Assembly (NCBI GenBank): GCA_017462565.1
Contig: JAFTQW010000001.1
Span: forward strand, 1-64,000
Source: Ruminococcus sp.
GTDB taxonomy: Bacteria; Bacillota; Clostridia; Oscillospirales; Ruminococcaceae
Length of the DNA stretch: 64,000 nt
Direction: 5' to 3'
Positions 5,733 through 60,475 of this stretch are shown piece by piece. Under the pieces are notes generated by a model. The model searched no databases, was not told where the DNA came from, and saw only the letters and a program-made list of their open reading frames with translations. The position numbers and the translations under genes were made by a program. Within the stretch, counting starts at the first letter, position 1. Each line of letters opens with the position of its first letter.

Positions 5733-5956
5733 TACAGGGCAATAGCATTTTCTTTTTGTTATATTTATCAAGCGGACTTTGTTTCCCTGATTTCTTGCTG
5801 AAAGGAGTTATTTCCGCTTGGGCATCCTGCCCTAATCCTTACGGATACCCTTTATGGGTATCCGTAAGGATTAATACCGGGTTTCCAAAGGGACTGTACG
5901 TCCCTTTGGCAGGGGTTTAAGGGGACAGCGTCCCCTTATAATAACAGAAAAAGCAA
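5733..5956 (-). repeat. Dispersed TIR/hairpin element, copy A
   Basis: Copy of a repeat family found about nine times in this window. On the minus strand, following the ATPase stop, it shows hairpin 1 (AAGGGGAC-loop-GTCCCCTT), hairpin 2 (CCAAAGGGAC-loop-GTCCCTTTGG), hairpin 3 at 5834-5872 with 17-bp arms (AATCCTTACGGATACCC), hairpin 4 (CAAGCGGA with TCCGCTTG) and the outer end ...AACAAAAAG...TTGCCCTG. The opposite end (AACAGAAAAAGCAACCG) is a degenerate inverted copy. Hairpin 3 is nearly identical to that of copy D. Confidence 0.85.
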
Positions 5957-5974
5957 CCGCTGAGCACCTGTTTC

Positions 5975-8557
5975 TTATTTTTTCGATACCGCTTCTCTGA
6001 CCATTCTGAGAATCTGCGTTAACGCAAAGGGAATTACAGCAAGTCCGACCATCTGAGCGAGATTGACCGCCGTAAACGAATTGCTCACACTCATAAATCC
6101 GTGGAACGGAGCGATCATAAGAACGGCGACAAGCAAAACTGCTCCCAGACAGAAAGCTGCGATCGAAAACATATTTTTTGTAAATCCAAGCTTTGCGAGG
6201 GAATACTTTCCTCTGCTGTCGAATCCTTCAAAAAGACGTGCAAGGCATAATGTTCCAAAAGCCATTGTGCTTGCCATAGCCGCAGAATCGGTATAGCTCC
6301 TGCCTATCATAAAAGCTGTCATAACGCAGGCAGCAATAATAATACTATGGAAAAGAATATAGATACCTGTTTCCTTATTAAGAATGGATTCTTTTGAAGA
6401 ACGAGGCTTTTCGTTCATAACACCGTCCTGCATAGGCTCCATGCAAAGAGCAAGAGCCGGAAGCGAATCGGTGAGGAGATTTATAAATAAGAGGTGAACC
6501 GGCATAAACGGCAGCGGAAGATTGAGGACAGTTGTGAGAATAACGACTAAAATTGCCGCTGCGTTTCCTGCAAGCAGAAACTTTATAGCATTTTTGATAT
6601 TGCTGTATATGCATCTTCCGTTTGCGACCGCCTTAACTATAGTTGCAAAATTATCGTCGGCAAGAATCATTGAAGCGGCATCCTTTGAAACCTCGGTTCC
6701 TGTGATGCCCATAGCAACGCCGACGTCGGCTTTTTTCAGCGCAGGAGCGTCGTTAACGCCGTCTCCGGTCATTGAAACGACCATGTCCTTTTTCTGCCAG
6801 AGCTCGACTATTCTGATTTTATGAACGGGAGAAACTCTCGCATATACCGAAATCTTTTCCAGCTTAGCGGAAAGCTCCTCATCGGAAATCTTATCAAGCT
6901 CACTGCCGTCCATAGCCAAATCACCGTCTTTATATATGCCGATTTCTTTTGCAATAGCAACAGCTGTCAGATTATGATCTCCGGTTATCATAATAGGCTT
7001 TATTCCGGCAGAAATACACTCTGCAACAGCCGCCTTGCTCTCTTCTCTCGGAGGATCGGTCATAGCGATAAGACCGATGAAAATATAGCCGCATTCGTCC
7101 TCAAGACCGACAGGCTTGTCGCTTGAAAGGATTTTTTTAGCGAACGATAGAACTCTCATTCCGTTTTCGGAATAATTCAGATTTGCCTTTTTGATTTTTT
7201 CGATATCGTCATCATTAATGGGACGAATCCCGCCGTCTGCAAGAATAAATTCAAGTCTCGGAACAAGAACGTCCACAGCGCCCTTAGTATAGGCAGTTCT
7301 GACATCATTGAATACGTGAACGGTAGTCATAAGCTTTCTGTCGCTGTCGAAAGGAATTTCGTCCACACGGGGATTTTCTTCACGGATGCGGACATATTCA
7401 TCATTGCCGAGATAATCGGAAAGAGCTGTTTCCGTCGGATCGCCGAGCCACCCGTCGTCCGATTTTGCAGCGTCATTGCAAAGAGCCATAGCGAGAATAA
7501 GCTCGTCCTTAGCAGCTTCGCCGGGGAAGTTAAGGTCACGCACAGTCATTTTATTCTGAGTAAGAGTACCTGTTTTATCCGAGCAGATTATAGAAACGCA
7601 GCCGAGTCCCTCAACGGCTTTAAGATCTTTGATGATAGCCTTCTGCTTCGACATTTTCTGAGTTCCGATAGCGAGAGAAATTGTAATAATAGAGCTGAGA
7701 GCCTCCGGAATCGCAGCAACAGCAAGAGCAACGGCAAACATAAGAGCGTCAACGACAGGCTGTTTATTTATAAAGTAAGTCATAAGGAAAACGGCAATGC
7801 AAATTGCAATAACCGCAATTGAAAGTATCTTGCTGAATTTATCAAGACTCACCTGAAGAGGAGTTTTCTTCTTTTTGGCATTCTGCATAAGCGAAGCGAT
7901 CTTGCCTATTTCCGTATTCATTCCGACCGCCGTTACAACAGCTGTTCCACGGCCGTTTGAAATATTAGAGCCGGAATATATCATATTCACTCTGTCGCCG
8001 AGGGCAAGCTCCTCCGCTTCGATTTTGCCGGAAGATTTTACAACGTTAAGCGATTCGCCGGTAAGAGCGCTTTCATTCACCTGAAGAGAAGCAGCCTCAA
8101 GAAGTCTTCCGTCAGCCGCAGCAACGTTTCCTGCTTCTATAAGCAGAATATCGCCGACAACGACCTCCGACGCCGGAATTTCCACCTGAACGCCGTTTCT
8201 GATAACTCTTGCGCTTGGCGAACTCATAGCTTTAAGACTGTTTAGCGACTTCTGAGCCTTGATATGCTGAACGGTACCCAGAACCGCATTCATGATAAGA
8301 ACGACCAGAATAACGATAGTGCTTCCTATTTCGCCGCTTATCATAGAAATAATCGAAGCAATAATGAGAATAACGACAAGAAGATCGGCAAACTGCTCTA
8401 AAAAGACCATAAAAATACTTTTTGGCTTTTCTTCCATGATAGCGTTTTCACCGTTTTTAATACGGCTTTCATCGGCCTGCTGAGTCGTAAGACCTTTTTC
8501 GCTGTCTGAACCAAGCTCACGCAGAACATTTTCTGCATCCTGATTAAAATAATTCAT
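5975..8557 (-). CDS. P-type cation-transporting ATPase (Ca2+/Mn2+ type)
   Basis: An 860-aa P2-type ATPase. Motifs: LTGES in the actuator domain, DKTGTLTQNKM (phosphorylated Asp), TGDGVNDAPALKKADVG hinge, and M4 IPEAL. By eye against SERCA, the site II residues (Glu in IPEAL, Asn and Asp in INLLTDSLP) are kept while the site I Glu of M5 is replaced by Ala (AGNAAA), as in single-site SPCA/PMR1-type pumps that carry Ca2+ and Mn2+. The frame is open 26 codons upstream, but AGGAG precedes the ATG at 8557. The leader is a manganese-type riboswitch, which points to Mn2+ export. The substrate is inferred, not shown. Confidence 0.95.
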   Translation of the reverse strand: MNYFNQDAENVLRELGSDSEKGLTTQQADESRIKNGENAIMEEKPKSIFMVFLEQFADLLVVILIIASIISMISGEIGSTIVILVVLIMNAVLGTVQHIKAQKSLNSLKAMSSPSARVIRNGVQVEIPASEVVVGDILLIEAGNVAAADGRLLEAASLQVNESALTGESLNVVKSSGKIEAEELALGDRVNMIYSGSNISNGRGTAVVTAVGMNTEIGKIASLMQNAKKKKTPLQVSLDKFSKILSIAVIAICIAVFLMTYFINKQPVVDALMFAVALAVAAIPEALSSIITISLAIGTQKMSKQKAIIKDLKAVEGLGCVSIICSDKTGTLTQNKMTVRDLNFPGEAAKDELILAMALCNDAAKSDDGWLGDPTETALSDYLGNDEYVRIREENPRVDEIPFDSDRKLMTTVHVFNDVRTAYTKGAVDVLVPRLEFILADGGIRPINDDDIEKIKKANLNYSENGMRVLSFAKKILSSDKPVGLEDECGYIFIGLIAMTDPPREESKAAVAECISAGIKPIMITGDHNLTAVAIAKEIGIYKDGDLAMDGSELDKISDEELSAKLEKISVYARVSPVHKIRIVELWQKKDMVVSMTGDGVNDAPALKKADVGVAMGITGTEVSKDAASMILADDNFATIVKAVANGRCIYSNIKNAIKFLLAGNAAAILVVILTTVLNLPLPFMPVHLLFINLLTDSLPALALCMEPMQDGVMNEKPRSSKESILNKETGIYILFHSIIIAACVMTAFMIGRSYTDSAAMASTMAFGTLCLARLFEGFDSRGKYSLAKLGFTKNMFSIAAFCLGAVLLVAVLMIAPFHGFMSVSNSFTAVNLAQMVGLAVIPFALTQILRMVREAVSKK

Positions 8558-10808: not shown

Positions 10809-10916
10809 GAGATTCTGTACCTTTAATTTCTGTCAAATAGTATCCAATCATTGGCGGCAGCCATAATTATTTCAAATACCACCGGTATTTGAAATAATTA
10901 ATACCGGGTTTCCAAA
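10809..10916 (-). repeat. Dispersed element, copy B1 (first 108-bp direct repeat)
   Basis: A 108-bp segment repeated almost exactly at 11062-11169 (about four differences). It contains hairpin 3 at 10865-10899 with perfect 16-bp arms (AATTATTTCAAATACC), then the family-typical AATACCGGGTTTCCAAAGGG. Hairpin 2 here has the different arms GGGCAGCGT and CGCTGCACCC. The other flank (GAGATTCTGTACC...) is unlike copies A, C, D and E. After hairpin 2 the family similarity fades. Confidence 0.75.
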
Positions 10917-11061
10917 GGGCAGCGTGACGCTGCACCCAATCACGGGGTTACTGCCCATAAAAGATAGAAGAACACATCGCTCATGATTTACCATAATAAT
11001 AGATTTCCTAAATGGTTATCAGTCCTTGTGGGGATACAGGGAATTAATACCAAAAAGTTAC

Positions 11062-11220
11062 GAGATTTTGTACCTTGAACTTCTGTCAAATAGTATCCAA
11101 TCATTGGCGACAGCCATAATTATTTCAAATACCACCGGTATTTGAAATAATTAATACCGGGTTTCCAAATGGTTGTATAACCCTTTGGCAGGGGTTTAAG
11201 GGGACAGAGTCCCCTTAATT
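11062..11220 (-). repeat. Dispersed element, copy B2 (second direct repeat)
   Basis: Repeats the 108 bp of B1 (hairpin 3 at 11118-11152, same arms), then continues through hairpin 2 (CCAAATGGTT and AACCCTTTGG) and hairpin 1 (AAGGGGAC and GTCCCCTT). Apart from these repeats, 10917-11061 has no recognisable gene. Confidence 0.8.
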
Positions 11221-11256
11221 TGACGACATCGACACTTTAAGGAGGTGTAAATTTAA

Positions 11257-32301: not shown

Positions 32302-32548
32302 CAAGGTATCAGTTTTACTTTTATTGAAGTTTACGAAGGGGACGCTGTCCCCTTAACCCCCTGCCAAAGGGGAGTACATCCCCTTTGGAATTCCGGTATT
32401 AATTCTCACAGATACCCATAAAGGATATCTGTGAGAATTAGGGCAGATTGCCCAAGCAACAATAACCGCTTTCAGCATAAAATCAAGAAAACAACTGTCT
32501 GCTTCATATACTCAGTAAAACAAATACTGATTTCTTAAACAATTCGAT
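32302..32548 (+). repeat. Dispersed TIR/hairpin element, copy C
   Basis: Begins immediately after the pth stop. Hairpin 1 GGGGACGCTGTCCCC; hairpin 2 CCAAAGGGGA-loop-TCCCCTTTGG; hairpin 3 at 32401-32439 with arms AATTCTCACAGATA and TATCTGTGAGAATT; then GGGC-loop-GCCC. The ends (AGGTATCAGTTTTACTTTTA on the left, CAGTAAAACAAATACTGATT on the right) are inverted repeats of each other. It fills the pth-mfd gap. Confidence 0.85.
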
Positions 32549-40259: not shown

Positions 40260-40350
40260 AAAACCGCTTCCTTTCCATTCCGGCAAAATGATAATATTCA
40301 ATCACCCCCGCCATATGACGAGGGTGAAAACAATCTTTCTGAAAATTCAA

Positions 40351-42747: not shown

Positions 42748-42857
42748 ATTTTTTCTCCTTTTGTGCTGATAAACGGCAGTGCTATTCCGTAACAGCGTAA
42801 TAATAGTAGTTTTATTATACCATTTTTTTCAATTTATTTCAAGTACTTTAACAATAT

Positions 42858-43101
42858 TTTATCACGGCAACAGCATTTATTTTTTTACATATTAAGGGGA
42901 CGCTGTCCCCTTAAACCCCTGCCAAAGGGACGTAAAGTCCCTTTGGAAACCCGGTATTAATCCTTACGGATACCCTTTATGGGTATCCGTAAGGATTAGG
43001 GCAGGACGCCCAAGCGAAAATAACTCCTTTCAGCAAGAAATCAGAGAAACAAAGTCCGCTTGATAAACATAACAAAAAGTAAATATTGTTGCCCTGGATA
43101 A
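42858..43101 (+). repeat. Dispersed TIR/hairpin element, copy D (most complete)
   Basis: Best-preserved copy. Left end ATCACGGCAACAGCATTTAT, right end (inverted) ATCCAGGGCAACAATATTTA. Between them: hairpin 1 (AAGGGGACGCTGTCCCCTT), hairpin 2 (CCAAAGGGAC and GTCCCTTTGG), hairpin 3 at 42959-42997 (arms AATCCTTACGGATACCC), GGGC/GCCC, and a longer CAAGCG...CGCTTG pairing. It sits between divergently transcribed GH94 and secG. The remaining sequence of 42748-43269 is AT-rich with the secG promoter. Confidence 0.88.
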
Positions 43102-43195
43102 TTTATGAAAATTTTTGAATTAAAATCAGGAGATAAGTTGTACAATTCCAACAATTTTTTTCAGAAAAAACCGCTTGTTTTTTACTCGTAAATAC

Positions 43196-43224
43196 TTGAA
43201 ACATAAAAAAAAATATGATATAAT
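43196..43224 (+). promoter_or_regulatory. Promoter of secG
   Basis: TTGAAA (43196-43201), a 17-nt spacer and TATAAT (43219-43224), about 46 nt before the ATG. Confidence 0.8.
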
Positions 43225-43269
43225 AATAGAGATATTTGAATTCGTGTATTCTAATGGAGGTATTTTATT

Positions 43270-43527: not shown

Positions 43528-43537
43528 TCAGAATCAG

Positions 43538-43569
43538 CCCTGTGACTTAGTCATGGGGTTTATTTTTTA
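43538..43569 (+). terminator. Terminator between secG and rnr
   Basis: CCCTGTGAC-TTA-GTCATGGGG is a 9-bp stem with two G-U wobble pairs, followed by TTTATTTTTT. It lies directly before the rnr ribosome binding site, so it may set the secG:rnr ratio by partial read-through. Confidence 0.65.
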
Positions 43570-43582
43570 AAGCGAGGTAATT

Positions 43583-45751: not shown

Positions 45752-45766
45752 GAGGATTAAATTATC

Positions 45767-46582: not shown

Positions 46583-46589
46583 CGTTTAT

Positions 46590-46815
46590 TATTTGCGGGG
46601 ACTCTGTCCCCACACCCCTGCCAAAGGGATATTCCTCCCAACGGTCGCCCGTCCCCTCTGTCGGCAAGCCGACATCTCCCCACACTGTGGGGAGTCACCC
46701 TTTGAAAACCCATAATTAATAAATAAAAATACCCCATAAAGGGGTCTTTTTATTTATTAGGATGAAATGTCCAATAGCGTAACAACACTTGACAAGAAGT
46801 ATAAGAAACAGAATC
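46590..46815 (+). repeat. Dispersed element, copy H, carrying a nested insertion
   Basis: Starts just after the lipoprotein stop. Hairpin 1 is GGGGACTCTGTCCCC. Hairpin 2 arms (CCAAAGGG and CCCTTTGA) are split by about 65 bp that contain two extra perfect hairpins (TGTCGGC-AA-GCCGACA and CTCCCCAC-ACT-GTGGGGAG), suggesting a second repeat nested in the loop. Hairpin 3 at 46717-46759 has arms TAATAAATAAAAATACCCC and GGGGTCTTTTTATTTATTA. The right end is degenerate. Confidence 0.75.
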
Positions 46816-46851
46816 CGCATTAATACACTCAATGTGGCAAATTCAAACTGC

Positions 46852-47379: not shown

Positions 47380-47412
47380 ATTATCACCTGCGAATATTAT
47401 AACAGATATCCG

Positions 47413-47444
47413 GAAAAAAAGCAATCCCCGGTTTTTCCGGGGAT
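47413..47444 (-). terminator. Terminator of the 181-aa lipoprotein
   Basis: On the minus strand ATCCCCGG-AAAAA-CCGGGGAT followed by TGCTTTTTTTCC. Confidence 0.8.
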
Positions 47445-47451
47445 TCATATA

Positions 47452-47997
47452 TTATGTATTTTCTGATACAACCTGTTCATAAACTTCGTCAAATGACATA
47501 TCATCAAATTCATAAGGCGAGTCATCCACTTCATTCAATTCATCAGGCGAAATAAACTGTCCGTCAGACAAGGACGGTGCGTCAAAATGCCCGATAAATT
47601 TATTATCATCTGCTTTTATATACGTTGATTCACACTTACCATTTTCGATAACCGCAAACCACTCTATTGCGTCAATATTAGTATAGAAATCATGCATATC
47701 GGAATAAAATTTATCATCAATTCCTTCAGCGTTGACGTTTTTTTCTGTATCCGAACAAACTATCACTGTTTTGTCGCTTTCGAGAATATCGGACATTCTT
47801 TCTTCTTCATCCGCACAAGACAAAACGGTGTTCGCTGCATTGCATACAGATTTAGCGGAAGATCTTGATTCAGCCAATTGTTTATTATTGCCTTTATCAG
47901 ATGAAGATCCCTTATCGCTGTCACCACAGGCAGTCATAGTTCCAAGCATACTCAGAGTCATTAAGACAGCAATAGCAAATTTAAGCTTCTTTTTCAT
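47452..47997 (-). CDS. Small acidic lipoprotein (181 aa)
   Basis: Signal peptide with lipobox MTAC (Cys at 24), a short Ser/Lys/Asp linker, then a domain with SRSSAKSVCNAANTVLSCADEEER (helical, like the stem after a pilin-type helix) and a beta-rich acidic C terminus (GHFDAPSLSDGQFISPDEL). I do not recognise the family. AAAGGATG supports the start, and it has its own terminator. Monocistronic. Confidence 0.78.
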   Translation of the reverse strand: MKKKLKFAIAVLMTLSMLGTMTACGDSDKGSSSDKGNNKQLAESRSSAKSVCNAANTVLSCADEEERMSDILESDKTVIVCSDTEKNVNAEGIDDKFYSDMHDFYTNIDAIEWFAVIENGKCESTYIKADDNKFIGHFDAPSLSDGQFISPDELNEVDDSPYEFDDMSFDEVYEQVVSENT

Positions 47998-48071
47998 TGT
48001 ATCATCCTTTCAATTAAACTTATATCATTATATCACATTAAATCGAAAAAGTCAATAAATTTATGAAATTC

Positions 48072-48318
48072 AATAAGGTCAACAGCATTTACTTTTTGTT
48101 ATGTTTATCAAGTGGACCTTGTCTCTTAAATTTCTTGCTGAACGGTATATTTTCTTTTGGGTATTTCTTCTAAATTATTACAAATACCCCTTTATGGGGT
48201 ATTTGTAATAATTTAATTGTGGGTTTCCAAAGGGGATGTACTCCCCTTTGGCAGGGGTATAAGGGGACAGCGTCCCCTTAATAACTAACAAAAAAAGTAA
48301 ATACTATTGCCGTGGAAA
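48072..48318 (-). repeat. Dispersed TIR/hairpin element, copy E
   Basis: Clear ends: AAGGTCAACAGCATTTACTT on the left and, inverted, CACGGCAATAGTATTTACTT on the right. Hairpin 1 AAGGGGAC/GTCCCCTT; hairpin 2 CCAAAGGGGA/TCCCCTTTGG; hairpin 3 at 48172-48214 with perfect 19-bp arms (AAATTATTACAAATACCCC). It lies downstream of PFOR and its terminator, upstream of the lipoprotein at 47997. Confidence 0.87.
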
Positions 48319-48324
48319 TTAAAT

Positions 48325-48366
48325 AAAAAACCTGCCGCACTTTCATGCGGCAGGCAATTTTATTTA
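48325..48366 (-). terminator. Terminator of the PFOR gene
   Basis: On the minus strand CCTGCCGCA-TGAAAG-TGCGGCAGG followed by TTTTTTATTT. Confidence 0.9.
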
Positions 48367-48374
48367 TTCAAAGA

Positions 48375-51300: not shown

Positions 51301-51920
51301 TCTCTGAATCTCTGAGCAGCGTCTTTATCGAGAAGATCATAAAGGGTAGCGTCATCCCATGTTTCGATCTTCTGAATTTCGTGAGAAGTACGGAATCCAT
51401 CGAAGAAATGGAGGAAAGGAACTCTGCCCTTGATCGTTGAAAGATGAGCTACAGCGCCAAGATCCATAACTTCCTGAGCATTGGAAGAACAGAGCATAGC
51501 ATAACCTGTCTGACGGCAGGCATAAATATCGGAATGGTCGCCGAAAATGTTAAGGGCGTGTGAAGAAACGCATCTTGCGGAAACGTGAATAACGTTAGGA
51601 AGAAGCTCTCCTGCGATCTTATACATATTAGGAATCATAAGGAGAAGTCCCTGTGAAGCCGTGTATGTAGTCGTAAGAGCGCCTGCTGCGAGAGAACCGT
51701 GAACAGTACCGGCAGCACCGGCTTCAGACTGCATTTCTGCAACAGTAACAGGCTGTCCGAAAAGATTCTTTTTATCTTTAGCAGACCAGCTGTCCGTAAC
51801 CTCAGCCATAACTGATGAAGGTGTGATCGGATAAATAGCAGCAACATCTGTAAATGGATATGAAACCCAAGCGGCGGCGTTATTGCCGTCCATGGTTTTC
51901 ATTTTTCTTTTGATTGCCAT
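48375..51920 (-). CDS. nifJ: Pyruvate:ferredoxin (flavodoxin) oxidoreductase
   Basis: A single-chain PFOR (1181 aa) that oxidises pyruvate with CoA to acetyl-CoA, CO2 and reduced ferredoxin. Domains in order: the N-terminal pyrimidine-binding domain (DGNNAAAWVSYPFTDVAAIYP, YPITPSSVMAE), domain II, a gamma domain (GGVTISHLRFGKTPIKSTYL), and a 2x[4Fe-4S] ferredoxin domain (CIQCNQCAYVCP, CTGCGVCANVCP). The TPP domain follows, with SGACAGCGETPYAKL and GGDGWAYDIGFGGLDHV. AGGAGG precedes the ATG. A strong promoter and a terminator make it a one-gene unit. Confidence 0.98.
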   Translation of the reverse strand: MAIKRKMKTMDGNNAAAWVSYPFTDVAAIYPITPSSVMAEVTDSWSAKDKKNLFGQPVTVAEMQSEAGAAGTVHGSLAAGALTTTYTASQGLLLMIPNMYKIAGELLPNVIHVSARCVSSHALNIFGDHSDIYACRQTGYAMLCSSNAQEVMDLGAVAHLSTIKGRVPFLHFFDGFRTSHEIQKIETWDDATLYDLLDKDAAQRFRDGALHPERPVLRGSAQNPDIFFQAREACNKYYDALPDIVEEYMNKVNDLIGTDYKLFNYYGATDAEHVIIAMGSVNDTIEETIDYLNANGGKYGLVKVRLYRPFVADKLVEAIPDSVKRISVLDRTKEPGSLGEPLYLDVVAALKDTKFNNVPVFTGRYGLGSKDTVPAQIVAVFKNDSKKRFTIGIEDDVTNLSLPLEENPDSAPAGTTACKFWGLGSDGTVGANKNSIKIIGDHTDLYAQAYFAYDSKKSGGVTISHLRFGKTPIKSTYLINKADFVACHNQSYIDKYDMVSDIKPGGTFLLNTIWSPEELDANLPGQVKRYIAQNNINFYIINGVKLGEETGMGTRINTILQSAFFKLANIIPFEDALKYMKAAAEASYSKKGQDVVEKNWNAIDAGHQNIVKIDVPASWADAADTQVGMAAVTCDDKKLQDYVNNIQIPCNAQKGDSLPVSTFVDMADGTFPQGSAAFEKRGIAVKVPNWIAENCIQCNQCAYVCPHAVIRPVALSEAEAEAAPAAAKIVDFKPAMTGLKFTMTVSTLDCTGCGVCANVCPAKEKALVMEPIASQMDQQEVFNYGVTIDEKPEVAAKFKAETVKGSQFRQPLLEFSGACAGCGETPYAKLVTQLFGDRMLIANATGCSSIWGGSAPSTPYTVNKKGRGPAWQNSLFEDNAEFGYGMYLAQETLRKRVSDKVKALEEKAEKPEVKAAIAEYFDTFNDGAKNADATDKLVAALEACGCDDAKAILAEKDYLSKKSQWIFGGDGWAYDIGFGGLDHVIASGKNVNILVFDTEVYSNTGGQASKSTPTGAIAQFAAAGKVMKKKDLAGIAMSYGYVYVAHVAMGANMNQCIKAFAEAEAYDGPSIVIAYAPCINHGIKTGMATAQAEEKKAVEAGYWHLYRYNPALKEAGKNPFILDSKAPNTDEYKNFLMGEVRYNSLARQNPERAAKLFDTAVANAKDRYDYLTKLTTLYGQD

Positions 51921-52001
51921 AGGAATGACCTCCTGAAAAATAAATTTAATGGGTTATATATTGGTAAGAGAAAACATTAACCAAGTATAACTGCTTTTTA
52001 T

Positions 52002-52030
52002 ATTATAACATAAAAACTAAAATTTGTAAA
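52002..52030 (-). promoter_or_regulatory. Promoter of the PFOR gene
   Basis: On the minus strand TTTACA (52025-52030), a 17-nt spacer and TATAAT (52002-52007), about 80 nt before the ATG. Confidence 0.78.
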
Positions 52031-52192
52031 CACCTTTTTGTAATTATAGTAGAAATTTATATATATAATTTTTTACGTCTTAGAACCTGAAAAAAAGAGT
52101 TGCAATTTTGTGAATATTGTAAATTAGCTCGGTTGATTATTGTGCAAGATTACAGAAATTTGACAAAGAATGGATTTTTTTCTTTATTTCCC

Positions 52193-52221
52193 TTGACGAA
52201 ACGGCAGAAATGCGATATAAT
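52193..52221 (+). promoter_or_regulatory. Strong plus-strand promoter with no ORF downstream
   Basis: TTGACG (52193-52198), exactly 17 nt, TATAAT (52216-52221). No plus-strand coding frame follows; the next sequence is the candidate small RNA. Confidence 0.85.
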
Positions 52222-52227
52222 AACTAT

Positions 52228-52345
52228 AGTGTTAAATAATCTTTAATTATTAACACTCGTTTTGTTGTCTCCTTTCTTTTGTTCTACACATATTTAGTTT
52301 TATTTGTTTGTGTTAAGCAGGGCAGTTGCCCTGCTTATTTTTTTA
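52228..52345 (+). ncRNA. Candidate small RNA (about 118 nt)
   Basis: Transcription from the 52193-52221 promoter would give about 118 nt. It has a 5' hairpin (AGTGTTAAATAAT with ATTATTAACACT), a single-stranded pyrimidine-rich middle containing GTCTCCTTTCTTTTG, and a perfect 10-bp terminator stem (AAGCAGGGCA-GT-TGCCCTGCTT) followed by ATTTTTTT. The TCTCCTTTC core is complementary to Shine-Dalgarno sequences of the GAAAGGAGA type, which several genes here use. No ORF with a binding site is inside. I do not recognise a known RNA family. Confidence 0.65.
52315..52345 (+). terminator. Terminator of the candidate small RNA
   Basis: A 10-bp stem with T7 run on the plus strand. The minus strand lacks a T tract, so it belongs to the plus transcript rather than to the PFOR side. 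Confidence 0.85.
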
Positions 52346-52780
52346 TTGAAAGAAATAATAGATCAGACCGTAAACTACTGATGCTGAACATCCATAAAGT
52401 ATTACAGGTCCGGCAATCGTAAAAATTTTTGCTCCGACTCCAAGAATAAATCCCTCGGATTTAGCCTCTATCGCAGAAGAGCTGATAGCGTTTGAAAAGC
52501 CTGTTATGGGGACGAGAGTTCCGGCGCCGGCGTGTTTGGCGAGCCTTTCATACAATCCGAATCCGGTCAGAAGAGCGCTTAGCCCCACGAGGATTATAGA
52601 AGTCCATGTTCCGGCAGAGAGTTTATCAAGCCCGTAATTTTCCAGAATGGCGGAGATGATCTGTCCAATAGCGCATATTGCTCCTCCGGTGCAGAATGCA
52701 ACCGGAACATTTACTATCGCTCTTGATTTAGGCGAAGCCTGACGGCTCATTTCGCTGTATAATTCAGGTGTTATATTCAT
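52343..52780 (-). CDS. spoVAC: Stage V sporulation protein AC
   Basis: A 145-aa SpoVA-family membrane protein involved in dipicolinic acid movement in spores. Family segments: PVAFCTGGAICAIGQIISAIL (helix 1), a second helix SIILVGLSALLTGFGLYERL, then the signature AGAGTLVPITGFSNAISSSAIEAKSEGFILGVGAKIF and a final helix. Length and the N-terminal soluble part fit SpoVAC rather than the shorter SpoVAE. It stands alone here, apart from other spoVA genes. GGAGG is 9 nt before the ATG. Confidence 0.88.
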   Translation of the reverse strand: MNITPELYSEMSRQASPKSRAIVNVPVAFCTGGAICAIGQIISAILENYGLDKLSAGTWTSIILVGLSALLTGFGLYERLAKHAGAGTLVPITGFSNAISSSAIEAKSEGFILGVGAKIFTIAGPVILYGCSASVVYGLIYYFFQ

Positions 52781-52855
52781 GAGATGTTTCCTCCTTTTCT
52801 TTTTATTTTATTATTAACAGCAAATACAAATTTATTCGTTTATTTTTTTCACAGC

Positions 52856-52897
52856 AAAAAGAGCCGCCGCACCAAAGTGCAGCAGCTCCTTTTTTAT
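52856..52897 (-). terminator. Bidirectional terminator after ppdK
   Basis: GAGCCGCCGCAC-CAAA-GTGCAGCAGCTC with T runs on both strands; serves ppdK on the minus strand. Confidence 0.75.
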
Positions 52898-52929
52898 CTT
52901 TCGGACATTATATTATAAATCAATAAGAA

Positions 52930-55557
52930 TTATTTCTGGTTAGCAATTGCAGCCTGTGCAGCAGCAAGACGAGCAATCGGAACACGGAAAGGTGAGCAAG
53001 ATACATAGTCAAGACCGATCTTGTGGCAGAACTCAACAGAAGTCGGGTCGCCGCCGTGCTCGCCGCAGATACCGATATGGAGTTTCGGATTTACAGGCTT
53101 ACCGAGCTGGATAGCCATTTCCATAAGCTTACCAACACCAGTCTGATCGAGCTTAGCGAAAGGATCGTTCTCGAATATCTTTTTGTCATAGTAAGCGTCG
53201 AGGAACTTACCAGCGTCGTCTCTTGAGAAGCCGTAAGTCATCTGTGTAAGATCGTTTGTACCGAAGCAGAAGAAGTCAGCGTTAGCAGCGATCTCGTCAG
53301 CTGTAAGAGCAGCTCTTGGGATCTCGATCATTGTACCAACTTCATACTTGAGGTCAGAACCAGCCTCAGCGATAACAGCGTCAGCAGTCTCAACAACAAC
53401 CTTCTTAACGTATTTAAGCTCCTTAACATCGCCTACAAGAGGAATCATGATCTCAGGAACGATAGACCAGTCAGGATGAGCGTTCTTAACGTTGATAGCA
53501 GCCTTGATAACAGCCTTTGTCTGCATTTTAGCGATCTCAGGATATGTTACAGCAAGACGGCATCCTCTGTGACCCATCATCGGGTTGAATTCGTGGAGCG
53601 AATCAATAATAGCCTTGATAGTCTCAACGGGCTTGCCCTGAGCTTCAGCGAGAGCCTTGATATCAGCTTCTTCAGTAGGAACGAATTCGTGGAGAGGAGG
53701 ATCGAGGAATCTGATAGTAACAGGGCAGCCCTCAAGAGCCTCATAAAGAGCCTCAAAGTCAGCCTGCTGCATTGGTTCGATCTTAGCAAGAGCAGCTTCT
53801 CTCTCTTCAACAGTATCAGAGCAGATCATCTCACGGAAAGCAGCGATTCTGTCAGGATCGAAGAACATATGCTCAGTACGGCAGAGACCGATACCTTCAG
53901 CGCCGAGTTCTCTTGCCTTCTTAGCGTCAGCAGGAGTATCAGCATTTGTTCTTACCTTAAGAGTTCTGTACTTATCTGCCCAACCCATGATTCTGCCGAA
54001 TGTACCAGCGATCTGAGCGTCAACAGTAGGAATGATGCCATCGTAGATATTACCTGTAGTACCGTCGATTGAGATATAATCGCCCTCGTTGAAAACTTTT
54101 CCGCCGAGTTCAAATTTCTTGTTAGCTTCGTCCATCTTGATATCGCCGCAGCCTGATACACAGCATTCGCCCATACCACGTGCAACAACAGCAGCGTGTG
54201 AAGTCATACCGCCACGAACTGTAAGAATACCCTGTGCAGCCTTCATACCTGTGATATCCTCAGGTGAAGTTTCAAGACGAACAAGAACAACCTTTTCGCC
54301 CTTAGCAGCCCAAGCCTCAGCGTCGTCAGCAGTAAATACAACCTTACCGCAAGCAGCACCTGGTGAAGCGCCAAGACCCTTGCCCATAGGAGTTGCAGCC
54401 TTAAGAGCAGCAGTATCAAACTGTGGGTGGAGAAGCGTATCGAGGTTTCTTGGGTCGATCATAGCAACAGCTTCCTGCTCTGTCTTCATGCCCTCGTCAA
54501 CGAGGTCGCAAGCGATCTGGAGAGCAGCCTGAGCAGTTCTCTTACCGTTTCTTGTCTGGAGCATATAGAGCTTCTTGTTTTCAACAGTAAATTCCATATC
54601 CTGCATATCGTGATAGTGATTTTCGAGAGTTTTGCAAACTTCAACGAACTGTGCATAAGCCTCCGGGAATGTCTCTTCCATCTGAGCGATAGGCATAGGA
54701 GTTCTTACACCGGCAACAACGTCTTCGCCCTGTGCGTTTGTAAGGAATTCTCCCATGAGCTTCTTTTCGCCTGTAGCAGGGTCACGGGTAAATGCAACGC
54801 CAGTACCGCAGTCGTCGCCCATGTTGCCGAATGCCATTGACTGAACGTTAACAGCAGTACCCCATGAGAAAGGAATATCATTATCTCTTCTGTAAACGTT
54901 AGCTCTTGGGTTGTCCCATGAACGGAATACAGCCTTGATAGCGCCCATGAGCTGCTCCTTAGGATCGGTCGGGAAATCTGTGCCGATCTTAGCCTTATAT
55001 TCAGCCTTGAACTGTGAAGCGAGTTCCTTGAGGTCGTCAGCGTCAAGCTCAACGTCCTGAGTAACGCCCTTCTTTGCCTTCATTTCGTCGATAAGCTCTT
55101 CAAAATACTTCTTACCAACTTCCATAACTACGTCGGAATACATCTGGATGAATCTTCTGTAGCAGTCCCAAGCCCATCTTGCATTGCCGGACTTAGCAGC
55201 GATTGTTTCAACAACAGTTTCATTAAGACCGAGGTTAAGGATTGTATCCATCATGCCGGGCATAGAAGCTCTTGCGCCTGAACGAACAGAAACGAGAAGC
55301 GGGTTCTCCTTATCGCCGAACTTCTTGCCTGTGATCTCTTCCATTTTAACGATATATTCGTTGATTTCAGCCTGAATCTCTTCACTGATGCCGCCGTCCT
55401 CATAATACTGAGTACAAGCCTCTGTAGTGATAGTGAAGCCCTGAGGAACAGGGAGACCGATGTTAGTCATCTCAGCGAGGTTAGCGCCCTTACCGCCGAG
55501 AAGTTCTCTCATGTTGGCATTACCTTCAGAAAAAAGGTAACAATACTTATTAGCCAT
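52930..55557 (-). CDS. ppdK: Pyruvate, phosphate dikinase
   Basis: A full-length PPDK (875 aa) that interconverts pyruvate + ATP + Pi and PEP + AMP + PPi. The N-terminal ATP-grasp domain starts MRELLGGKGANLAEMTNIGLPVP. The swivelling domain carries the phospho-His in GGMTSHAAVVARGMG (about 453). The C-terminal PEP/pyruvate barrel has RTEHMFFD, LDPPLHEF, GTMIEIPRAALTAD and FFCFGTNDLTQMTYGFSRDD with the catalytic GICGEHGGDP. In saccharolytic anaerobes it often works in the glycolytic direction using PPi. GGAGG precedes the ATG. Confidence 0.98.
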   Translation of the reverse strand: MANKYCYLFSEGNANMRELLGGKGANLAEMTNIGLPVPQGFTITTEACTQYYEDGGISEEIQAEINEYIVKMEEITGKKFGDKENPLLVSVRSGARASMPGMMDTILNLGLNETVVETIAAKSGNARWAWDCYRRFIQMYSDVVMEVGKKYFEELIDEMKAKKGVTQDVELDADDLKELASQFKAEYKAKIGTDFPTDPKEQLMGAIKAVFRSWDNPRANVYRRDNDIPFSWGTAVNVQSMAFGNMGDDCGTGVAFTRDPATGEKKLMGEFLTNAQGEDVVAGVRTPMPIAQMEETFPEAYAQFVEVCKTLENHYHDMQDMEFTVENKKLYMLQTRNGKRTAQAALQIACDLVDEGMKTEQEAVAMIDPRNLDTLLHPQFDTAALKAATPMGKGLGASPGAACGKVVFTADDAEAWAAKGEKVVLVRLETSPEDITGMKAAQGILTVRGGMTSHAAVVARGMGECCVSGCGDIKMDEANKKFELGGKVFNEGDYISIDGTTGNIYDGIIPTVDAQIAGTFGRIMGWADKYRTLKVRTNADTPADAKKARELGAEGIGLCRTEHMFFDPDRIAAFREMICSDTVEEREAALAKIEPMQQADFEALYEALEGCPVTIRFLDPPLHEFVPTEEADIKALAEAQGKPVETIKAIIDSLHEFNPMMGHRGCRLAVTYPEIAKMQTKAVIKAAINVKNAHPDWSIVPEIMIPLVGDVKELKYVKKVVVETADAVIAEAGSDLKYEVGTMIEIPRAALTADEIAANADFFCFGTNDLTQMTYGFSRDDAGKFLDAYYDKKIFENDPFAKLDQTGVGKLMEMAIQLGKPVNPKLHIGICGEHGGDPTSVEFCHKIGLDYVSCSPFRVPIARLAAAQAAIANQK

Positions 55558-55783
55558 TGGTATATACCTCCAGTTTTAAACATTACCGGAAAGGGTCAAA
55601 AACAATGCCCCTCCGACTTATAATTATTATAACACATTTCGGAAAGAATTACCATATATAATATAAGAAAAATTAATCGTTGATTTTGTAGCACATTTCA
55701 CAAAAAAATACATTAATACAGGTTATTAAGAAGAAACTGCTGTGAATTTTGTTAATAAAACATCAAAAAAATCAGGCAAGAAT

Positions 55784-55835
55784 CAAAAAACAACGGCTTT
55801 CATTGGCGTCCTCTCAAAAGCCAATGAAAGCCGTT
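55784..55835 (-). terminator. Long minus-strand terminator hairpin without a known gene
   Basis: AACGGCTTTCATTGGC and its exact inverse (55792-55807 and 55820-55835) form a 16-bp stem, followed on the minus strand by GTTTTTTGATT. The nearest upstream minus-strand gene ends 750 nt away and has its own terminator. Confidence 0.75.
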
Positions 55836-56548
55836 ATCACAAAGCACAAATGCGCACCCTCTATACGCATCCGCAGCTACGGCAGGCGCAATATCCGAAG
55901 CGCCTTATGATTCTTTTGTTACAGTATAGTTCCTGATATAATGTTTCAAATGTCTTGAAGCTGATTTAGGCGATTAAACATATTATAGGCATTAATGTTT
56001 AATAACAGCTCTTTTGCAAATAAGTTTAGTAGAACCAATGATACAATAAATCCGGCGGAGTTTAAACCGGATAAACAAAAATGTAATCATAATCTGCCGA
56101 TTTTTACAGGATACAAAAAGTATCTGAATGTAATTATGCTTTGGAGCGAAAGCCGATATATCGACGATTTCCGCATCCAACAATTGTATTATAAAACAAA
56201 CCGGAGCGATAATCAATTGAAAATATTGCTTATTTTTAGCACTATATTGCTATTGCTTTTTCAAATATTTAAATTAACAAATCGTTTATAAATTATTTAT
56301 TATAATATATACATATTTCATTGAAATTATATTAATTAAACAAAGTATGTATATATTAAAATATAATTTGAATTTGATTTTACAGCAAAATACAGGCAAT
56401 ATTTCAACCGGATATCAATTTTTTCATTTTAAAGCTAACACATTCAGCTATCCGATTGCAGCAAAAAATCATCCGGCTCATTCTTACAGTAAAATAAATT
56501 TATCAACTGGTCATCTGAAAAAAGCACAAAAATTTTTCCGGACAACAT

Positions 56549-56582
56549 AAAAAGGCTGCCGCATTTTCTATGCAGCAGCCAT
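56549..56582 (-). terminator. Terminator of the 235-aa gene
   Basis: On the minus strand GGCTGCTGCAT-loop-ATGCGGCAGCC followed by TTTTTATG. Confidence 0.8.
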
Positions 56583-56592
56583 AATTTGTTGG

Positions 56593-57300
56593 TCAGATAA
56601 TTCCCTGTGCGGCTTCCTGAATACATTTTTCGTAATAATCCCTGCTCCAGCTAAATTCAAATTCGCTGAAAAGTCTGAGGCAGGCAGACGTACTTTCAAC
56701 AGCCGCTTCAAGTCCCTCTTCGTCGCCTGAACAGGCAAGCAGATAGACTCCGGTTATCATAATTTCAAGCAGTTTAGTATCATTTTTGCCCTGCGGTCTG
56801 TAGCCGAATTTCATAAGCTTGAACGCCTGATTGTAATGTTTTGCGGCACAGTCGGTAAGAGCAAGAGCAATAAACATATCCGCCTGCTGCTGAAGCGGTC
56901 TTTTCTGCGAATAATTCTGCATAAAATTTATATTTTCAGTCCTGAAATCTTCAGCGTCACGCCAATGGCCAAGCTTACTTTCAGTTTTAAGCATTTCAAT
57001 ACAGTAGTAGAATTTCTCATCGCCGCCGAGTTTCTTTTCAGCAAGCATATCAAGATAGAACGAAGCGCTTTTATTATCGTGTATTTTATCATAAAGATCG
57101 GCAAGCTGAATTATATCCTCGCTTGCAGGCTTTTTGGCATTGTCCACAAAAAAGTCGGCATATTCTTCACACAGATTCTTAGTATAGCCTTCCTCGGCGA
57201 AAATCCTGTAAATTTCTTCATATTTTTTCATTTCTGCCCCGAAAGATGGTTTTAAAGATTTAGCAAAATTAATTTTTTTACGTTCAGACGGCGATAGCAT
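56593..57300 (-). CDS. Alpha-helical hypothetical protein, TPR-like (235 aa)
   Basis: I do not recognise a named family. Helical pairs such as YEEIYRIFAEEGYTKNLCEE, IIQLADLYDKIHDNKSASFY and QADMFIALALTDCAAKHYNQ have TPR-like spacing of Ala/Tyr/Leu, suggesting a scaffold or peptide-binding solenoid. No signal peptide or membrane segment. GGAGGG lies 9 nt before the ATG at 57300. Monocistronic and divergent from the response regulator. Confidence 0.8.
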   Translation of the reverse strand: MLSPSERKKINFAKSLKPSFGAEMKKYEEIYRIFAEEGYTKNLCEEYADFFVDNAKKPASEDIIQLADLYDKIHDNKSASFYLDMLAEKKLGGDEKFYYCIEMLKTESKLGHWRDAEDFRTENINFMQNYSQKRPLQQQADMFIALALTDCAAKHYNQAFKLMKFGYRPQGKNDTKLLEIMITGVYLLACSGDEEGLEAAVESTSACLRLFSEFEFSWSRDYYEKCIQEAAQGII

Positions 57301-57542
57301 GAAAAATGTCCCTCCCCATACGCAGTAATATATTTTAAGTTCTATACTTACTGAATAATTCTAACACAAATTTAATAATTAGTCAATATTTTGATGTTGA
57401 ATTCCTCCAAAACCGTTGATATGCACAAAAAACAAGGCAAAAATTTTCTTAATCAATTCATTGAACTATATACTTTTTTAAGACTATTTCAACTATTTAT
57501 GATATAATTAGAATAAATCATAGTTCTGAAAGGAGAAAATAT

Positions 57543-58211
57543 ATGAAACTGCTTGTTGTTGAAGACGAAATTCAGCTCGCCGACGCTCTTACCGAAATAC
57601 TTAAAAGGAACCGATATAACGTTGATACGGCCTATAACGGCATAGACGGTCTCGATAACGCTCTTACAGGCGTTTATGACTGTATTATTCTCGACATAAT
57701 GCTTCCGGGAATGAGCGGAACGGAAATTCTCCGCAATATACGTCAGGAAAAGATAAACACTCCTGTTCTGCTGCTCACGGCAAGAAGCGAAATAGAGGAT
57801 AAGATAAACGGTCTTGATATGGGTGCGGACGATTATCTTACCAAACCTTTCGTCACAGGCGAACTTCTTGCCAGAGTAAGGGCGCTGACCAGACGCAAGG
57901 GCGAGATCGTTGACGAAAACAAGATAGACTACAACGGATTGCAATTAAATAAAAAAACCTGCAGCGTAATATGGAAAGACAGCGACGTCAAGCTTAGTCT
58001 TAAAGAATATCAGATAATGGAGCTTCTTATCATGAATCCCCGCCAGATTCTTCCGAAAGAACGTATTATTGAGAAAATATGGGGATATGAAAGCGATGTT
58101 GAATATAACAACATCGAAGTTTACATATCTTTTTTAAGGAAAAAGCTTTCAGTAATTTCCGCTCCTGTTCAGATAAAAACCGCCCGTGGAATCGGCTATT
58201 CGCTTGAGTAA
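57543..58211 (+). CDS. OmpR-family response regulator
   Basis: A 222-aa two-domain regulator. The receiver domain (1-118) has VVEDE acidic pocket, the phospho-acceptor Asp in CIILDIMLPGMSG (Asp 51), TARSE, and the Lys in DDYLTKPF. The OmpR/PhoB winged helix (about 130-222) ends with IETVRGIGYSL-like KTARGIGYSLE. AAAGGAG precedes the ATG. The cognate kinase follows 264 bp downstream, separated by repeat copy F. Confidence 0.96.
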   Translation: MKLLVVEDEIQLADALTEILKRNRYNVDTAYNGIDGLDNALTGVYDCIILDIMLPGMSGTEILRNIRQEKINTPVLLLTARSEIEDKINGLDMGADDYLTKPFVTGELLARVRALTRRKGEIVDENKIDYNGLQLNKKTCSVIWKDSDVKLSLKEYQIMELLIMNPRQILPKERIIEKIWGYESDVEYNNIEVYISFLRKKLSVISAPVQIKTARGIGYSLE

Positions 58212-58213
58212 AA

Positions 58214-58460
58214 AAGAAGAGCAGCAGCTTTTATTTTTATCAAAAATTATAAAGGGGGCTCTGTCCCCTTAAACCCATGCCAAAGGGTAAATTCACCCTT
58301 TGAAAACCCGATATTAATTATTTTCATTACCTCTTTACGAGGTAATGAAAATAATTAGGACAGGATGCCCGAACGGAAATAACTCCGTTTCACAAGAAAT
58401 TAAAGAAACAAAGTCCACTTGGTAAACATAACAAAAAGTAAATGCTGTTGCTTTGGGTAA
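58214..58460 (+). repeat. Dispersed TIR/hairpin element, copy F, inside a two-component locus
   Basis: Fills the gap between the response-regulator stop and the kinase start. Hairpin 1 GGGGGCTCTGTCCCC; hairpin 2 CCAAAGGGTA/CACCCTTTGA; hairpin 3 at 58316-58356 (arms AATTATTTTCATTACCTC and GAGGTAATGAAAATAATT). The right end AACAAAAAGTAAATGCTGTT is well kept; the left end (GCAGCAGCTTTTATTTTTAT) is degenerate. Confidence 0.83.
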
Positions 58461-58475
58461 GAAAGGAGCGGCTTA

Positions 58476-60293
58476 ATGTTCAGAAAAGCTCAGCTTAAAT
58501 TTTTTTCAATAATAATAAGTATATTGCTCGTTATTTTTACGGCTATTCTCGGTTCGATAAATATTATTATGAAAGTTGTGATGGAAAGTCAGTCGAGAAC
58601 AGTTTTAAAACAGATCGCCGCCGGAGTTGAATATGATGACGCAACTTCAACATTTACATACATTCACCCCGATTTCGACGATCCAGACCACAACAAACAC
58701 ATCGAAGAACCTCCGCCAAAGCAAAATGAAGAACCTTCCGAGAAAAATACCAAACCGTCCGATGAAAAAACAGAACCGTCGTCCGAGGAAGATACTACAA
58801 GCGAAACGTCTACAGCGCCTGCGCAGGATACGACGGATAAGCCTGCGGATTCTTCCGGCGAAAACCGGAATTCTCCGCCTGACTCAACAATTCATACCAC
58901 TTCACCGCCCACTGAAAACAATGTCGTCACAACAACCTCTGCCATACATGAAAATCCAACGTCAACTACGTTCCCTCCGGAGCAGATTCCGCCGGAGCAC
59001 GGCTGGCAGCCTCCTGACGACGAGCATCAAAGACCGGATCCTCCGCCCGATGACTGGGACTGGCACGATGAAAACCCCGTTTATCCTCCATTTGATTGGA
59101 GACCGTGGCGGGAGGAAGATCAGAATAACGATTCTTATTCCGAAACCGCATATACAGACGGATTCTGCGGCGGCAGCATAATTCAGCTCGGAAATACTAC
59201 AACAACTGCTCCTCCGAAAGAGGAAAAAGAACCTCCTGTTTCGGAGAAAAAATGGAATCCTTCGGATATTCGTCCGGGGGCGGAGGCTGTTCCTAAATCG
59301 CTTGGTTCTATCGACTTTTTTATTGTTATGGCTGATAAGCAGGGACAATATCTTGCAACGCTTAATAACGAAGACCTTTCCGCAGATACTGCCCAGAGCT
59401 ATATAACCGGCGTTCTAAATACGAAAGCAGAAACGGGAACGCTTAATAATTTTCAGTTCTATCAGCTTCCGAAAGACAACGGAACTCTCATGGTTTTTAC
59501 CGATAAAAGAGCGGAACTCGATATGCTCAGCAAACTAATGCGTACTACAATTACAATAGGTATAGCGGCTTTCCTGATTTTGTCCGTTGCAGCATATTTT
59601 CTCAGCCGTCAGGTCATGAAGCCTCTGAAAACCGCCTTTGAAAAGCAGAAACAGTTCGTTTCAGACGCAAGTCACGAGCTTAAAACTCCCGTTACGGTAA
59701 TTTCCGCAAACGCCGACGTCCTTGCAGATGAAATCGGCGAAAATAAGTGGCTCACCTATATCAAATCACAAACCGAAAGAATGAACGTCCTTGTAAACGA
59801 TCTGCTGAATCTCACACGTCTTGAAAACAATACCGCCGATTTTGTCAAGACCGATTTCGACCTTAGCAAAGCAATTGTAAACACGGCTCTTCCATTTGAA
59901 TGTCAGGCTTTTGAGACCAACAAAAAATTTGAACTCGACATCGAAGAGGATATCTCTCTTAACGGAAGCGAACGTCATATCAAGCAGATGGCAGCTATTT
60001 TTATTGACAATGCCCTAAAATATTCCTGTGACGGAGGAATTGTCCGTGTTACGCTGAAAAAGTCGGGCGATAAGCGGTTATTGTCAATATATAATACAGG
60101 AAAGGGCGTTAAGGATTCGGAAAAGGATAAGATTTTCGAGCGTTTCTACCGCAGCGACGAATCACGCAACCGTGCGACCGGCGGCTACGGTCTCGGACTC
60201 GCTATTGCAAAATCTATCATCGACCGCCATAAGTTCAAAATCAGCGTTGAAAACATCGAGGGCAAAAGCATTTGCTTCATCATTACAATGTAA
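58476..60293 (+). CDS. Sensor histidine kinase with long Pro/Thr-rich extracellular region
   Basis: A 605-aa membrane kinase. TM1 is at about 8-31, TM2 at about 363-384. The extracellular part (about 32-360) is mostly disordered and rich in Pro, Thr, Glu and Asp, with Trp/Pro blocks (PPDDWDWHDENPVYPPFDW), then a small globular region next to TM2. The HisKA phospho-site is FVSDASHELKTPVTVI. The ATPase domain has IFIDNALKYS, the G1 box as NTGKG (Asn instead of the usual Asp), and GGYGLGLAIAKSI. AGGAG precedes the ATG. Its partner is the upstream regulator; the ligand is unknown. Confidence 0.95.
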   Translation: MFRKAQLKFFSIIISILLVIFTAILGSINIIMKVVMESQSRTVLKQIAAGVEYDDATSTFTYIHPDFDDPDHNKHIEEPPPKQNEEPSEKNTKPSDEKTEPSSEEDTTSETSTAPAQDTTDKPADSSGENRNSPPDSTIHTTSPPTENNVVTTTSAIHENPTSTTFPPEQIPPEHGWQPPDDEHQRPDPPPDDWDWHDENPVYPPFDWRPWREEDQNNDSYSETAYTDGFCGGSIIQLGNTTTTAPPKEEKEPPVSEKKWNPSDIRPGAEAVPKSLGSIDFFIVMADKQGQYLATLNNEDLSADTAQSYITGVLNTKAETGTLNNFQFYQLPKDNGTLMVFTDKRAELDMLSKLMRTTITIGIAAFLILSVAAYFLSRQVMKPLKTAFEKQKQFVSDASHELKTPVTVISANADVLADEIGENKWLTYIKSQTERMNVLVNDLLNLTRLENNTADFVKTDFDLSKAIVNTALPFECQAFETNKKFELDIEEDISLNGSERHIKQMAAIFIDNALKYSCDGGIVRVTLKKSGDKRLLSIYNTGKGVKDSEKDKIFERFYRSDESRNRATGGYGLGLAIAKSIIDRHKFKISVENIEGKSICFIITM

Positions 60294-60295
60294 GA

Positions 60296-60475
60296 GGGGG
60301 ACTCTGTCCCCCTTTACCCCCTGCCAAAGGGTTATTCAACCCTTTGGAAACCCAGTATTAATTAACTTAAATACCCACAAAGGGCATTTAAGTTAATTAT
60401 GGCTGAAAGCCATAGAATAAAAACACCTGTAACAAGAAGTAAAGGAGAACAAATTCCCTCTTTATATGCAAGAAA
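60296..60475 (+). repeat. Dispersed TIR/hairpin element, copy G
   Basis: Starts right after the kinase stop. Hairpin 1 AGGGGGAC/GTCCCCCT (both arms changed together relative to other copies); hairpin 2 CCAAAGGGTT/AACCCTTTGG; hairpin 3 at 60360-60398 (arms AATTAACTTAAAT and ATTTAAGTTAATT). The distal end is degenerate. Confidence 0.8.

Follow-up and report, generated by a model that had tools for sequence, protein, structure and literature searches.

A dispersed three-hairpin element of a Ruminococcus genome: a probable MITE family with matched palindrome arms

Introduction

The intergenic gaps of one stretch of Ruminococcus sp. DNA repeatedly hold the same folded, non-coding sequence, and the question is what this hairpin element is: a mobile element, a structured RNA or a set of terminators. 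The stretch, called the window below, comprises the 64,000 nucleotides at positions 1 to 64,000 of contig JAFTQW010000001.1 (C32; GenBank assembly GCA_017462565.1). An earlier note made from these letters alone, the original prediction, had described nine copies with inverted ends and an ordered set of internal hairpins. Our preferred explanation, to which we assign a probability of about 0.8, is that the copies are miniature inverted-repeat transposable elements (MITEs) driven in trans by an ISAs1-type transposase, with the interior palindromes kept by template switching and the cores swapped by recombination. For the source genome the MITE reading has good support, with ISAs1 as the most likely driver; template switching with exchange is the best reading of the comparative data. 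The predicted MITE-like origin and the structure have stood, and a GGGC/GCCC stem and a single end consensus have not stood as features of the whole family.

Copies and family size

We aligned 19 cores (18 copies of the source genome found by similarity and window copy G) and built a covariance model from their consensus structure. The model returned exactly nine copies in the window, all in the intergenic places where they had first been described. Across the source genome (2.63 Mb) it gave at least 150 core matches, 150 of 1486 first-look candidates having been scored; the weakest were truncated cores or cores fused with other repeats. Three matches at contig ends were dropped, leaving 147, and three overlapping matches on opposite strands, leaving 144. 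The observation is confirmed as real and is larger than first described. The exact hairpin-2 pattern was found 95 times in the source genome and never in the reversed control, and the end sequence GGCAACAGCATTTACTTTTT was found 85 times with at most 3 mismatches compared to 2 for its control (a count that includes the ends of the partner insertion sequence introduced below). Because both far exceed their controls, the copies are not due to chance. A collection scan named one carrier, the Ruminococcus flavefaciens metagenome-assembled genome (MAG) NALB_7963_3, hereafter G031, with at least 61 core matches.

The extent could be fixed for six window copies (A, B2, C, D, E and F). The length of about 240 bp predicted for full copies fits A, C, D, E and F (234-240 bp), and B2 measures 187 bp. 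With coding capacity judged by frame size only, a 240-bp copy is too short for a 90-codon frame. B1 and B2 are similar to one another, and B1 is partly a different repeat.

Ends, target duplications and the partner insertion sequence

Type I ends (CACGGCAACAGCATTTAC) bound the element on both sides in 14 of the 144 copies and on one side, the other end being unrecognised, in 27. A second and unlike set, type II (CAATGCCAACAACTTAAG), was found on both sides in 24 copies, and 52 copies show neither type. The one consensus first proposed for the inverted ends thus describes a part of the family. The same core lies under two unlike end types, perhaps three: a core copy at C52:25966 is bounded on either side, allowing 3 and 5 mismatches, by ends of the kind that flank the gene C6:19-930 described below. 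In G031 both ends were recognised on 10 of 41 cores (3 with type I and 7 with type II).

The bases next to the ends are duplicated. For type I copies (n=14) the identity between the two 10-bp flanks was 0.557 compared to 0.378 (sd 0.049) in shuffled pairs, and for type II copies (n=24) it was 0.575 compared to 0.281 (sd 0.036). Among lengths from 3 to 13 the duplication score was highest at 10 in both sets. Some type II copies lie within hairpin 1 of other copies at the target GTCCCCTTAA, with 10/10 at C39:55426. A preference for palindromic targets, hinted at by a few copies, was rejected (p 0.17 and 0.22 for types I and II, respectively). We likewise make no claim for covarying ends: among 143 copies the copy's own two ends fitted each other better than ends from its nearest relative in 80, worse in 51 and equally in 12, and this fit is weak and comes partly from flanking palindromes.

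Many type I end matches in the source genome lie ∼116-157 bases from contig ends. We fetched 20 such contig ends and in 19 of them found a multicopy insertion sequence with type I ends, opening with the frame MKIERLTERLSELTDPRRTRYGNIRHKLED. It has the same first 18-23 bases as the type I copies. Around it, duplications are common to six pairs of contig ends, five at 10/10 and one at 9/10, and every other pair is at 6 or below; left and right ends were assigned here by eye from the fetched sequences, as script patterns did not separate the sides. In genome G026 we found a complete relative of this insertion sequence with matching ends on both sides, and its transposase reached 368 bits with the ISAs1 model NF033564 (cut-off 70). 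The ends and the 10-bp duplications are thus common to the type I copies and the ISAs1 family; the transposase gene belongs to the latter, the hairpin elements having none, and beyond ∼23 bases the sequences differ. A second ISAs1 gene of the source genome, C6:19-930, has the element ends CACGGAAATCAATTTTG, as read by eye.

Two further observations were made on these insertion sequences. At the end of C49 (L041) and the start of C58 (L043), copies of the partner insertion sequence lie ∼9-10 bases past the end of a MITE copy. The complete insertion sequence in G026 (C6:13634-16770, L104) adjoins CRISPR-like repeats (ATTTCAATCCACGCCCCCTGTGAGAGGGCGAAA).

Empty sites in a related genome

Among 80 genomes of the genus, G031 was the one in which empty sites were examined. 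Window positions 42693-60873 align with G031:C11:377476-394157 in five collinear pieces of 87-93% identity. Of the five copies in the 20 kb compared, G031 precisely lacks two (D and F) and shares two (G and H), and E is undecided. Since G031 has a single copy of the target where the source genome has two, D and F read as gains in the source genome, judging from this alignment. Together with the target duplications and an insertion sequence whose ends match, these empty sites support the MITE-like origin that had been suggested.

Copy E decides nothing, as the whole 906-bp segment around it is missing from G031. This segment (window 47426-48331) holds an open reading frame (ORF, 47452-47997) beside copy E and has no counterpart at the syntenic place. 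From the shared copy H, G031 lacks the segment 46620-46697, which consists of an insert and most of the 5' arm. The idea that H demonstrates a mobile nested insert was considered and rejected: a deletion in G031 at a CACCC microhomology explains the difference equally.

Gene context

The context was studied on 61 of the 144 copies, namely those with 600-base flanks, one per region, with the longest open frame on each side taken as an approximate neighbour. Nearly all of them (59 of 61) lie outside any frame of at least 150 codons. For 51 copies both neighbours could be called: 15 copies are in sense, 16 in antisense, 14 between convergent and 6 between divergent neighbours. The lack of a strand preference and the small number in divergent gaps are as expected for insertions filtered by selection. 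An ORF ending at 60293 has its stop codon within the presumed 5' end of copy G.

Such a context would also suit bidirectional terminators or insulators between genes which are useful to the host and spread through that benefit. The position outside long frames and the ratio of convergent to divergent gaps agree with this, and a scan of window positions 42000-61000 found terminator-like sites on both strands of H and on the minus strand of F. However, the same scan found none within D, E or G, copy F sits between co-directional ORFs 264 bp apart, the presence of copies varies between relatives, and selection against harmful insertions gives the same context. We therefore consider this explanation improbable. 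With sites in F and H and none in D, E or G, the likeness among the copies is not confined to generic terminators.

Hairpin structure and arm matching

The three hairpins had been predicted in a fixed order, and this is what the 19-core alignment gives: in hairpins 1, 2 and 3, pairing reaches 98-99% of cells. For the fourth predicted part, the GGGC/GCCC stem, the figure is only 51%, and this stem is not a family-wide feature. Overall 93.6% of cells are paired compared to 83.2% in shuffles, and 72 cells have both sides changed compared to 21.5. Further pair types are less striking (30 compared to 26.4, a value reached by 25 of 500 shuffles). Pairing drops sharply when partners are slid by one column.

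Hairpin 3 allows the closest look. Its 15-nt form occurs in 107 of the 144 copies with 60 distinct arms, and 77 are perfect; in a shuffled-core control at least 11 matches were reached in 2 of 117 cases. The pairs comprise 1567 Watson-Crick, 21 A.C, 9 G.T and 8 other; A.C would be a wobble pair if the opposite strand were the RNA, and the excess of 21 over 9 is small and drawn from copies that are not independent. There is no excess of wobble pairs on the element strand and we claim nothing more from these counts. The loop reads CATAAAG or CGTAAAG in 36 cases and the reverse complement in 7, and the arms around these loops belong to several families. In copies A and D the hairpin 3 arms are the same, the cores are nearly so and the loops are opposite. 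In hairpins 1 and 2, whose stems are shorter, we counted 2 flips and 1 flip, respectively, leaving out the CCATTGG/CCAATGG loops, which differ by one base.

Matched changes of this kind would usually be taken for a structured regulatory or small RNA that has spread over the genome with its hairpins kept by selection. The strong covariation, the high pairing, the fixed order of the hairpins and the conserved sequence of hairpin 2 all speak for such an RNA. Several results speak against it. Since G.U is not favoured over A.C, there is no signal of RNA selection on the element strand. The loops are flipped, the neighbours are evenly oriented (15 sense, 16 antisense), and at loci shared with G031 copies are absent or have unlike cores. 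No Rfam family scored over threshold anywhere in the window, and a permissive scan of copy D returned one microRNA family at 23.6 bits, against a threshold of 119. We regard an RNA kept by selection as very improbable.

Template switching between inverted arms is described in PMC8604942 as homogenising the arms and inverting the spacer. Loop inversion together with compensatory change is named as its strongest support in PMC8794818, where the combination is extremely rare in that paper's rRNA data. Because wobble pairs are not enriched, loops occur both ways round and neighbours show no strand preference, the matched arms point to template switching in DNA and not to a selected RNA. The suggestion of a structured RNA or DNA element accordingly held for the structure, which is real and covaries; between the two options, the evidence favours the upkeep of palindromes at the level of DNA.

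Core exchange and orientation at shared loci

We fetched 40 G031 regions around cores, 20 of which had both flanks matched to a locus of the source genome. Sixteen of the 20 loci were compared; L275, L281, L292 and L298 were left out for a deleted hairpin, two cores, a nested insert and a long gap. L273 and L299 hold two cores in the source genome, and there we used the core of the same orientation.

The core has the same orientation at 12 of the 16 loci and the opposite one at 4. Among the 12, core identity has two peaks: 0.92-0.97 at six loci and 0.73-0.77 at the other six, the latter matching the identity of unrelated copies (0.75, sd 0.07). At these six, identity is 0.82-1.0 in the 5' flank and in the 50-base stretch that precedes the core and is mostly flank. 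When the 3' flank is compared over a fixed window, three of the loci are alike (0.84-0.93) and the other three are out of register (0.53-0.58).

Unlike cores between the same flanks could also come from independent insertions at one site in each lineage, with no exchange. Type II copies do reuse the target GTCCCCTTAA within other copies, the fixed window matched the 3' flank at only three of the six loci, and the 5' part of the element itself is different at L282/L146, a locus that may represent independent insertions. Yet BLAST matched both flanks at all six loci, there is no general preference for palindromic targets, and at L270, L273, L289, L290 and L301 the shared sequence reaches into the element, through hairpin 1 or beyond, with the 3' part of the element shared as well at L301 and L273. 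Independent insertion as the general cause is in our view unlikely.

The four loci of opposite orientation raise another alternative, namely that the interior is an invertible cassette of a site-specific recombinase and acts as a phase-variation switch. Reversed cores between the same flanks are what it calls for, and L280/L158 combines identical hairpin 3 arms with a core 0.88 alike. As this locus alone of the four keeps its arms, it is the sole good case of inversion. The cores of L293 and L294 are unlike (0.80 and 0.73), so independent insertion or replacement also fits there, and L274 holds a type II copy nested inside the element. On these loci a cassette of this kind seems to us scarcely probable, and exchange of cores by recombination is the reading that we retain.

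Mirror-image copies were also seen at C19:8732-8908, C19:26797-26971 and C52:47692-47862, where two core matches on opposite strands have one hairpin 3 in common.

Proposed mechanism and points against it

In the mechanism that we favour, an ISAs1-family DDE transposase would act in trans on the element ends and would move or copy the element to new, mostly intergenic sites. The palindromes (hairpins 1-3) would fold as DNA hairpins during replication and polymerase template switching would copy one arm from the other, producing matched changes and loop flips. Recombination among the many copies would swap cores. To the stronger claim that the covariation was made by mutation and not by selection, template switching rewriting arms and flipping loops while recombination swaps and inverts cores between loci, we give even odds.

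Several results weigh against this explanation. On the side of the transposase, this assembly lacks the complete gene of the matching insertion sequence: in the source genome the contigs break ∼115-160 bases into the element, and only the first 30 codons are visible. G031 gave no match to the left end of the insertion sequence and its ISAs1 is a broken fragment below cut-off. We found no insertion sequence bounded by type II ends, clear ends being seen at just 5 of 13 ISAs1 loci. On the side of the ends, about a third of the copies in the source genome and 23 of the 41 cores in G031 have no recognised end, and long inverted ends were absent from the 7 core matches inspected in other members of the genus. 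The 10 copies of G031 with both ends have flanks 2-6/10 alike and no clear duplication; they may be older, or their ends may be set a base off as at L303. On the side of template switching, the process leaves unexplained why the sequence of hairpin 2's outer stem is constant, and among the 7 shared loci with retained arms we saw none at which hairpin 3 alone had flipped.

If the explanation is true, more than 100 naturally occurring copies document a process whose outcome standard tests would take as proving a functional RNA: covariation, on which the case for a conserved RNA usually rests, could then come about in mobile palindromes of DNA. Flipped loops and the lack of wobble pairs would offer a way to separate covariation made in DNA from that selected in RNA, and the copies at shared loci would make template switching testable in bacteria. 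One of the two end types is tied to a transposase family.

Distribution and known systems

We searched 60 genomes (the source genome and relatives) with the covariance model. At E 0.001 there were 24 matching genomes, namely the source genome and 23 others among the 36 of the same genus, and the core had no match in the 24 genomes of other families. Among 295 genomes drawn from the order 8 matched at E ≤1e-6, the source genome included; the other seven matched weakly (43-59 bits) and, because no long inverted ends were found at the 8 loci inspected in them, were not counted as members. Of 398 genomes from the phylum, 2 carried the exact hairpin-2 pattern, again including the source genome, and the end-bearing form was seen in the source genome and G031. 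Carriage by phages was considered and dropped, exact matches of one hairpin-2 pattern in viral contigs being zero. Literature searches in a PubMed Central subset listed nothing on the family. We describe here a large family of mobile elements in a genus of the gut and rumen, and found no name for it.

Among dispersed bacterial repeats, REP and BIME sequences with their RAYT are short palindromes beside a Y1 transposase. The Correia elements and NIMEs of Neisseria are not known to have this three-hairpin core. Compared by description only, from PMC3049150, the Neisseria repeats are likewise composite and intergenic, and Correia elements have 26-bp inverted ends. From the same source and again by description only, BOX, RUP and SPRITE of Streptococcus pneumoniae are dispersed folded repeats with MITE features, BOX being modular; they are given there as currently dormant, whereas the Ruminococcus insertions differ between relatives. 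That text also covers MITEs mobilised by insertion sequences, such as Nezha with ISNpu3-like elements (PMC3049150). Like these MITEs, the present elements are short, non-coding and tightly folded, with terminal inverted repeats, target duplications and a coding relative with the same ends. Unlike in those MITEs, one hairpin core occurs here under two unlike end types and in at least 144 copies per 2.6 Mb, and cores are unlike or reversed at shared loci.

Window copies and further repeats

The positions of the copies and of their parts are collected in Table 1.

Table 1. Copies of the hairpin element in the window, with hairpins and target duplications
Feature	Position	Strand	Description
Copy A	5735..5970	-	core 5820-5937; loop of hairpin 3 CATAAAG; type I at the 3' end, degenerate at the 5' end; flanks alike 6/10
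Copy B1	10852..10935	-	incomplete core with a different repeat in place of its first part; coordinates of the core only
Copy B2	11045..11231	-	core 11105-11216; diverged type II ends; no recognisable target duplication (2/10)
Copy C	32302..32537	+	core 32336-32453; ends degenerate; flanks alike 5/10
Copy D	42863..43096	+	core 42894-43011; type I ends CACGGCAACAGC...GTTGCCCTG; syntenic site of the R. flavefaciens relative empty
D left target duplication, 10 bp	42853..42862	.	AATATTTTAT
D right target duplication, 10 bp	43097..43106	.	GATAATTTAT; 8/10
D hairpin 1	42894..42912	+	AAGGGGACGCTGTCCCCTT
D hairpin 2	42922..42946	+	CCAAAGGG...CCCTTTGG
D hairpin 3	42958..42998	+	perfect palindrome; loop CTTTATG, the inverted loop of copy A
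Copy H	46586..46800, approximate	+	core 46676-46772; GC-rich insert nested in hairpin 2; locus common to the relative, there without 46620-46697
Copy E	48075..48314	-	core 48159-48279; type I ends; duplication 9/10 (48065-48074, 48315-48324); in a 906-bp segment without counterpart in the relative
Copy F	58217..58455	+	core 58252-58370; between two co-directional genes; syntenic site of the relative empty; hairpin 3 loop CTTTACG (inverted form)
F left target duplication	58207..58216	.	AGTAAAAAAG
F right target duplication	58456..58465	.	GGTAAGAAAG; 8/10; directly upstream of the start of the next gene
Copy G	60260..60460, approximate	+	core 60295-60412; ends not recognised; locus common to the relative

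Other repeats are mixed with the cores. A GC-rich nested repeat (CCCAACGGTCGCCCGTCCCC...GTCACTTCGTGAC...CCCCACACTGTGGGGA), which looks like a separate family of hairpin repeats, lies in or beside hairpin 2 or 1 at window positions 46620-46697, at C54:14922-15100 (L065) and at L030 and L050. The sequences ATGAGCGATGTGTTCT...GGGTGCAGCGTCACGCTGCC and CACGCTGTCCTTTTCGGGGCTCTGCCCCGATACCCC were found at window positions 10852-10935 and at several loci on C19, C28 and C39. Apart from the element, window positions 39606-40019 hold a tandem pair of 207-nt repeats, 83% alike, within the ORF 38703-40301.

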